The notes below the pieces were generated by a model. That model had not been told where the DNA came from and did no database searches. It saw only the letters and a program-made list of their open reading frames with translations. The translations under genes were made by a program, and so were the position numbers. A stretch of 64,000 nt of DNA from Planctomycetota bacterium (GTDB lineage Bacteria > Planctomycetota > UBA1135 > JACQFD01): NCBI GenBank assembly GCA_016200225.1, contig JACQFD010000021.1:124001-188000 (forward strand), written 5' to 3'. Position 1 is the stretch's first letter. Every line of letters begins with the position of its first letter. This document shows positions 19,197-21,940 of this stretch, piece by piece.

Positions 19197-21940
19197 CTAA
19201 TGTAATTGGCTGAACATCATAGTGATTCCACCCGGAAAGGAATTATTACCGATCGCGGCGTCGAGAAATCCGTCTCCGTTCAGATCCTCCAATGCGACCG
19301 AACTTGGGGAGTTTCCAGCGACATAGAATACCTGAGACGCAAAAGTTCCGTCGCCTATTCCCAATATGATAGAAAGATCACTTGATGAATTATTGGCCAC
19401 GGCAAGATCCGGAATATTGTCACCATTCACATCCCGAGCAAGGACGCACGTCGGGTACCAGCCACAACTATATAGAACCATTTGTTTAAACGTCCCGTTC
19501 CCAAAACCCATAAATATAGAGATGTTATCAGAATTGCGATTGGCGACCGCGATATCGAGCGCGCCGTCTGAATTCAGGTCTGCCAATGATACGAAAGTAG
19601 GCGTACTGCCAGTTGTATATTGTGCTGACAGTCCGAAGTTTCGAAACCTGTTCCCTGCAACACCGAAATTGTATTTGAGCCGGCATTTGCAATTACAATG
19701 TCCGGCAGAGAGTCGCCATTGAGATCTCCGATTGCGACGGAGCTTGGGCCACTTCCAACCGAATATGCATTCGAAGCTACAAATCCTCCAGCGCCATTCC
19801 CAAATAAGACTGAACACGCGTTCGCGTTCGCATTGACAGTTACAATATCGAGCGTACCGTCTGAATTCAAATCGCTGAGCGCCACGCTCCAAGGTGTCCC
19901 AGTAATTGTAATTAACGTTGGCGGCCCGAATCCAGCATTTGTAGTTCCGAGGAGTACTGAGACACTATCGAAGTAGGCATTCGCCGTCACCGCGTCCAGT
20001 TTACCGTCGCCATTGAGATCACCGAAAACGACAGAATTCGGGCTCGCGCCTGTTGAATAGGGTGAGAACGGTAATAATCCTCCAGATCCACTGTTAAGAA
20101 AAACATCCAGTTCGCCCAGCGAATTTCCGGTAGCCGCCATGACGTCCGGCTTGCCGTCGCCGTCAAAATCAGCGGCCACAATGGACGAAGCACCCGCGCC
20201 TGTCGAATACGCAATTGGAGCCGGAAAGGCCCCACTTCCAAGCCCAAGGAGCATTGTAATATTGCCTGACATTTGATTGGATCCCGAAAGGCCGTTCGAC
20301 GTGAGAATGTCTAATTTTCCATCTTTATTAAAATCTCGAATGGCGAGTGAGTTAGCCCTTATTACTCATGAAGTCTATGAAGATGGCCCACAGTGTGTCG
20401 CCAAATGTAAGGCGCGACGACGGCGCGACCGAGCACGGTCTCGCCGGAGGAGCAACGCAACAGTTGGCGGCACAATGTGTGGCCAGATTCGTGGAATTCA
20501 TGAATAATGCGGGTTAGGTCCGGAACCAACCATGTACGATTTTGCTATTGACAGGATTCCACTTCCTGAACCCATCAATACTGATATAAAACCTGGATAG
20601 TAATTAGTGGCTGGACCGTAGTCCGCTGTTACAACATCCAAAGTTCCATTCGAGTCCAAGTCTTCACTCGCAACGAAGATAGGTGCGATACCGACCGCAT
20701 AGGATGCGGGTGTCAAATATGTTCCAGTTCCAGTACCAATGAACACTGAAATGTTATTTGAACCGTAATTTGTGGCAACAATATCGGCATTGCCATCGCC
20801 ATTCAGATCTTTCACAACGGTGGAATATGGATATGTACCCGTTGTGTACGTCACTTGCGAAGCAAAGCTTCCATTTCCCAGACCCAACAAGATCGAAATA
20901 TTATTAGATCCGTTGTTTGTAGCGACAACGTCCGTTTTGCCGTCGCCGTTAAAATCACCAGTTGACACGAAAGTAGGACTGGCGCCAACAGCAAATTGGG
21001 TCGCCGCCGAAAATGTTCCGCCGCCCAACCCCATCAATACAGATATATTATTTGACCCGGTATTCGCGGTTACAATATCGAGTTTTCCATTTCCGTTGAA
21101 ATCGGCAATGGCAACCGTTCGGGGATTCACGCCAACCGCATAAGCAACAAACTGTACAAATGATCCATTTCCCTTCCCAAGAAGTACAGAAATATTATTT
21201 GACAACCAATTTGAGGTCACGACGTCTGGTTTTCCATCTCCATTCAGATCGCCGGATGCAGCGTCAATAGGGCCCTGGCCGACCGAAAACGATACAGATG
21301 TCGCAAAAGTTCCGTTGGCGCTCCCCTGTAAAATCGAAATTTTGTTTGATTGATAATCCGGCACAATCGCATCGTCATTACCATCGCGATTTAAGTCTGC
21401 GATTGCAAGCGGGGCAACGCCAATTCCCGCCGGGTATTCAGTCGCTGGATATATAGTAGTATTTGTCTGTGAAAATGGTTGTAAAGTAATCGCGAGCCCA
21501 AGAGAGCTGCTAAGTCCTAGTGGCGGTAGAGAACAAATGTTCCCCCAACTCCAAATCGCCTGAGCATAGTAAGTCTTTCCGACGAGCTGCGAATTGTTTG
21601 GAATTGGAATCGAAGCGAATCCAACGCCATTACCATTACTTTGCATGTCGAGAATGAATAGCTCTGTCGATCCCAAAAAATCAACGTCGATGAAAATACC
21701 CACGTTAAATATGTCGCTCCCGGGATTAAGCGCCATGTTACCAATAATTGCCACGCCGGATGCCGACGGCGGCGCATTTGTGCAGGTGATCGCAAATGCA
21801 TCATTGCCAATTGTAGGTATGGAGTTCGCTCCGGGAACTTCCATACCATTACATCCCTGCATTCCGGTGCCAAACGTTTGCGTTGGAGGGCCTTGCAGTG
21901 AAGCCGCCCATCCCAGCAACACGGCAAGAAGTGGTTTCAT
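19197..21940 (-). pseudogene. FG-GAP/VCBS-repeat secreted protein gene, interrupted by an insertion and a frameshift
   Basis: Three ORF pieces (20498-21940, 19574-20272, 19197-19892) carry the same repeat (..DLNGDGKPDVV..NNISVLLG.GNGTF). Removing 162 bp and adding 1 nt gives 2583 nt = 861 codons. Confidence 0.85.
20356..20512. mobile_element. MITE-like 157-bp palindromic insertion flanked by GTTAG target-site duplications (20351-20355 and 20513-20517)
   Basis: Long imperfect inverted repeats (CCCTTATTACTCATGAAG...GATGGCCCACAGTGTGTCGCCAAATGT vs CCGCATTATTCATGAATTCC...CTGGCCACACATTGTGCCGCCAACTGT), 5-bp direct repeats, and repeat-protein homology rejoining exactly at the junction. Confidence 0.8.

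Follow-up and report, generated by a model that had tools for sequence, protein, structure and literature searches.

The 158-bp insert that interrupts an FG-GAP gene in the window (the whole analysed stretch of 64,000 nucleotides) is, with high confidence, an IS1380-type MITE: its ends match those of an IS in the same genome, the transposase of that IS would have moved it in trans into the gene, and its interior has been kept as a hairpin. The preliminary description, made from the DNA sequence, had proposed a non-autonomous MITE-like element caught at a clean insertion site, and this proposal is borne out by copies, target duplications and a full-length IS that shares its ends. The element fits the usual description of an IS-linked MITE, being short, bounded by 17-bp terminal inverted repeats and devoid of a transposase gene, with 13 dispersed copies at YTAR target duplications and terminal repeats matching an autonomous 1707-bp IS1380 element of the same genome; the exception is descent of the interior from the IS.

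According to the comparison of aligned copies, the element spans positions 20356-20513 (plus strand, CCC...GGG) and is flanked on both sides by TTAG (20352-20355 and 20514-20517). The short near-palindromic insert in an FG-GAP gene and the identical GTTAG copies at 20351-20355 and 20513-20517 had been correctly recognised earlier, but the size had been given as 157 bp and the duplication as 5 bp. The alignment rules out a 5-bp duplication: the true one is the 4-bp TTAG (YTAR), whereas the fifth base G closes the inverted repeat on the right-hand side and matches by chance on the left. The left 17-bp terminal inverted repeat (20356-20372, plus strand) is diverged, with 3 mismatches to CCCGCATTATTCATGAA in the end-sequence search, and the right one (20497-20513, minus strand) matches the left end of the IS1380-family element exactly. 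The inverted arms described earlier are present (75% complementary over 36 nt and 85% over 20 nt), as is the central stem-loop CGGCGCGACCG-AGCA-CGGTCTCGCCG (20421-20446, plus strand), and the insert has, as had been noted, no ORF of its own. Folding, proposed as a check, gives a hairpin over the whole insert with a DNA MFE of −47.2 kcal/mol versus −23.9 ± 2.9 (z = −7.9) for 200 dinucleotide shuffles, 0 of which are as good as the insert.

The host gene lies on the minus strand and encodes an FG-GAP repeat protein, with PF13517 matches on both sides of the insert. Its 5′ part (20498-21940) is an ORF that now stops inside the element, and its 3′ part (19574-20353), identified like the former from ORFs, PF13517 and translation, continues in the same frame, with a possible restart ATG at 20272. 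The translation agrees with the reported break: ...SYMVGSGP is followed by NPHYS* within the insert and then by NSLAIRDFNKDGKLDIL in the same frame. Since the insert plus one duplication amounts to 162 bp, exactly 54 codons, the frame resumes, and at the insertion point only the stops within the insert break the gene. A second lesion is seen in the same gene, where the repeat reading shifts frame (ORF 19197-19892, minus strand), which points to either a sequencing error or a frameshift at about position 19640. A search for an empty-site allele in related strains found none, and one further genome of the same family that was compared has neither the MITE nor the IS.

The genome search for other copies, a lack of which would have counted against a mobile element, yielded 12 further ones, several with target duplications. 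All 13 copies are 76-100% identical, and 11 of them have both ends. End alignment defines the span as CCCGCATTATTCATGAA...TTCATGAATAATGCGGG and the duplicated target as a 4-bp YTAR. Among the 11 complete copies, the duplication is perfect in 5, counting one that needs an end shift of one base: TTAG/TTAG for C34 (the window copy) and C7, CTAA/CTAA for C14 and C19, and TTAG/TTAG for C28b provided that its right end is moved by one base. Most of the remaining complete copies show 1-2 mismatches between the duplications. ORF inspection places the window copy and C28a inside FG-GAP genes, and C7, C20 and C24 at or directly behind an ORF stop codon, for which the YTAR target naturally yields TAA or TAG; FG-GAP genes lie at or adjoin four of the copies examined.

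Several incomplete forms accompany these copies. C6 (locus L058, 3094-3234) and C28a (L059, 3283-3424) match each other across 141 shared bases and both end 16-17 bp before the right end. Their flanks differ, which would fit either the movement of a truncated copy or loss of the same end on two occasions. A 79-bp mini version with both ends is located at C12:133696-133774 (L060, about 2697-2775), and solitary MITE ends are found elsewhere, e.g., at C20:123680-123696.

As for the full-length IS with these ends, whose existence had been suggested for checking, it is present in the same genome. Further matches to the MITE end sequence lie close to the terminus of contig C34 and where contigs C27 and C35 begin, and the overlapping contig ends yield a 1707-bp IS with CTAA on each side. 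It carries a 485-aa ORF for an IS1380 transposase (PF13701, E = 1e-115; NF033539, 328.8 bits with a cut-off of 180 bits), and a second IS1380 fragment, whose protein is 91% identical, is located at the C14 terminus. The 17-bp ends are common to the IS and the MITE (17/17 on the left and 16/17 on the right), and a comparison of the two finds no common sequence beyond these ends. Having no likeness to the IS in its interior, the MITE is not supported as a derivative of this IS by internal deletion, which had been considered as an origin. Similar ends are seen on plasmids: for 5 of 6 plasmid IS1380 elements, the best end pair shows a matching YTAR duplication together with CCCGNATTATTCAC-like ends, and a related end, CCCGCATTTCTCACAG, belongs to a plasmid IS1380 element of Pseudomonas putida. 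The similarity search of plasmid DNA gave weak partial matches at most. The MITE resembles the IS1380 family (PF13701 / NF033539) in its 17-bp ends of the CCCGCATTATTCA(T/C) type and its 4-bp YTAR duplication; in contrast to the family, it has no transposase gene, and its 124-bp interior forms a hairpin with no relation to the IS. Without an ORF of its own, it is thus IS1380-linked and not itself an IS1380 element.

Because the genome's own IS1380 element shares the 17-bp ends and is flanked by a CTAA duplication, the MITE was most likely mobilised in trans, which is the best-supported mechanism. The IS1380 transposase would act in trans on the 17-bp ends and bring the element into a YTAR target with duplication of 4 bp (TTAG), an insertion that broke the FG-GAP gene. 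The hairpin is kept either through selection for the folded strand or through repair templated by the palindrome.

The hairpin of the MITE family is maintained, as the arms change together between copies. In the 13-copy alignment 97.8% of cells pair, and only 28-40% do so when the structure is slid by one to three columns. Double-change cells number 41 versus 14.7 ± 2.7 in shuffles, a count in which related copies provide fewer independent covariation events and several adjacent pairs switch jointly from one subfamily to another. Such covariation could also point to a structured RNA element as the functional unit, with selection acting on a one-strand RNA hairpin and mobility being secondary, an idea proposed for ERIC- or NEMIS-type repeats. 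Across three families 47 of 49 copies fold better on one strand, and on that strand G.U exceeds A.C and G.A/A.G exceeds C.T. However, a simulation of neutral decay shows that strand differences of such size commonly arise from one ancestor (P = 0.20, 0.45, and 0.03, one value per family), the shared ancestry of copies makes each family count as roughly one observation, and no Rfam match falls on the element, the search for known structured RNA families having covered five loci. One-strand RNA selection was therefore downgraded from a main claim and, with the strand differences mostly within the neutral-decay null, stands as a hypothesis; a primarily RNA-level function would seem rather unlikely.

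Similar elements exist outside the phylum. A scan of 85,462 species genomes for the strict form of both ends placed 108-138 bp apart returned six loci: Wenzhouxiangella sp. XN79A accounts for four and Mariprofundaceae MAGs for two. All six are palindromes of 160-161 bp, the majority with YTAR-like flanks. Among 393 genomes of the window's phylum, the strict end pattern has no carrier besides the window's genome. Wenzhouxiangella has about 30 copies and no PF13701 match in its genome, and one Mariprofundaceae MAG contains 98 matches to the ends within 1.8 Mb, with only fragmentary IS1380 remains. The interiors of these two are related (71-74%), and inspection reveals no apparent likeness to the interior in the window's genome. 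In the copies retrieved, 46 end pairs were called and 20 of them have perfect duplications, the set of 46 containing a few artefactual 26-bp calls within longer elements. In the Mariprofundaceae MAG, a 26-bp end-to-end remnant stands alone at a few sites and a single end at many, a pattern that deletion of hairpins would produce. Two 26-bp fused-end palindromes of this MAG, minimal remnants of the element, are located at L116 1619-1644 (CTAG-CCCGCATTATTCATGAATAATGCGGG-CTAG) and L120 5100-5125. At another of its loci (L153, 284-491), a palindrome starts about 210 bp downstream of a tmRNA gene (RF00023 at 1-279).

Mobilisation by a non-IS1380 transposase that uses the same ends and target would fit the two genomes just described, which have many copies and in which no intact IS1380 transposase was found. 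Nevertheless, this explanation is very improbable, since the full-length IS that shares these ends in the window's genome is an IS1380 element, plasmids repeatedly show IS1380 ends and YTAR targets, and 20 regions of the Mariprofundaceae MAG yielded no other element bounded by such ends. These regions, mostly around solitary ends, contain truncated copies and 26-bp end-to-end remnants, with no second end closing an IS that could be an autonomous partner. An assembly artefact or a chance inverted repeat is practically out of the question, given that the 13 copies are scattered, have YTAR duplications and differ in their flanks, and given the fold score of the insert.

Regarding known repeats, ERIC and Rickettsia palindromic elements (RPEs) resemble the window MITE in being about 130-160 bp long, forming hairpins and lying in and between genes. 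The MITE differs from both in its ends, its identified partner IS and its 4-bp YTAR duplications, and from RPEs also in that its insertion introduces in-frame stops. RPEs are also among the topics of a review (PMC10969869). According to the relevant passages of its report (PMC11578231), MITEPye1 of Paracoccus yeei is an IS-linked bacterial MITE that is likewise short and non-autonomous, with IS-matching terminal repeats, direct repeats and a long predicted stem-loop. It is, however, linked to IS1182, whereas the window MITE has an IS1380 link, 4-bp YTAR duplications and palindromes with related ends in unrelated bacteria. No link between a MITE and IS1380 appears in the relevant passages of PMC3281130, PMC11578231, PMC3542288, and PMC4133298, four of the open-access papers naming both, an absence that is no proof of novelty; the 2024 review of prokaryotic MITEs (PMC10969869) is not among the indexed papers that name both. 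A literature search with the end sequence gave no relevant match.

The window MITE is ordinary in kind; what makes it interesting is that the same design recurs in unrelated bacteria. IS1380-type transposases of unrelated bacteria might, as a speculative and doubtful generalisation, support a recurrent class of full-length hairpins of ~160 bp, the interior of which would be selected to fold single-stranded (as RNA or ssDNA) on one strand, with G.U and G.A pairs stabilising the folded strand while the DNA palindrome stays imperfect. An unnamed palindromic repeat is now tied to a specific IS family with a partner in the same genome. One design with different interiors (17-bp ends, a length of about 160 bp, a whole-length hairpin and a YTAR target) is found in unrelated bacteria, and whether IS1380-driven MITEs need the hairpin for mobility or persistence becomes testable.
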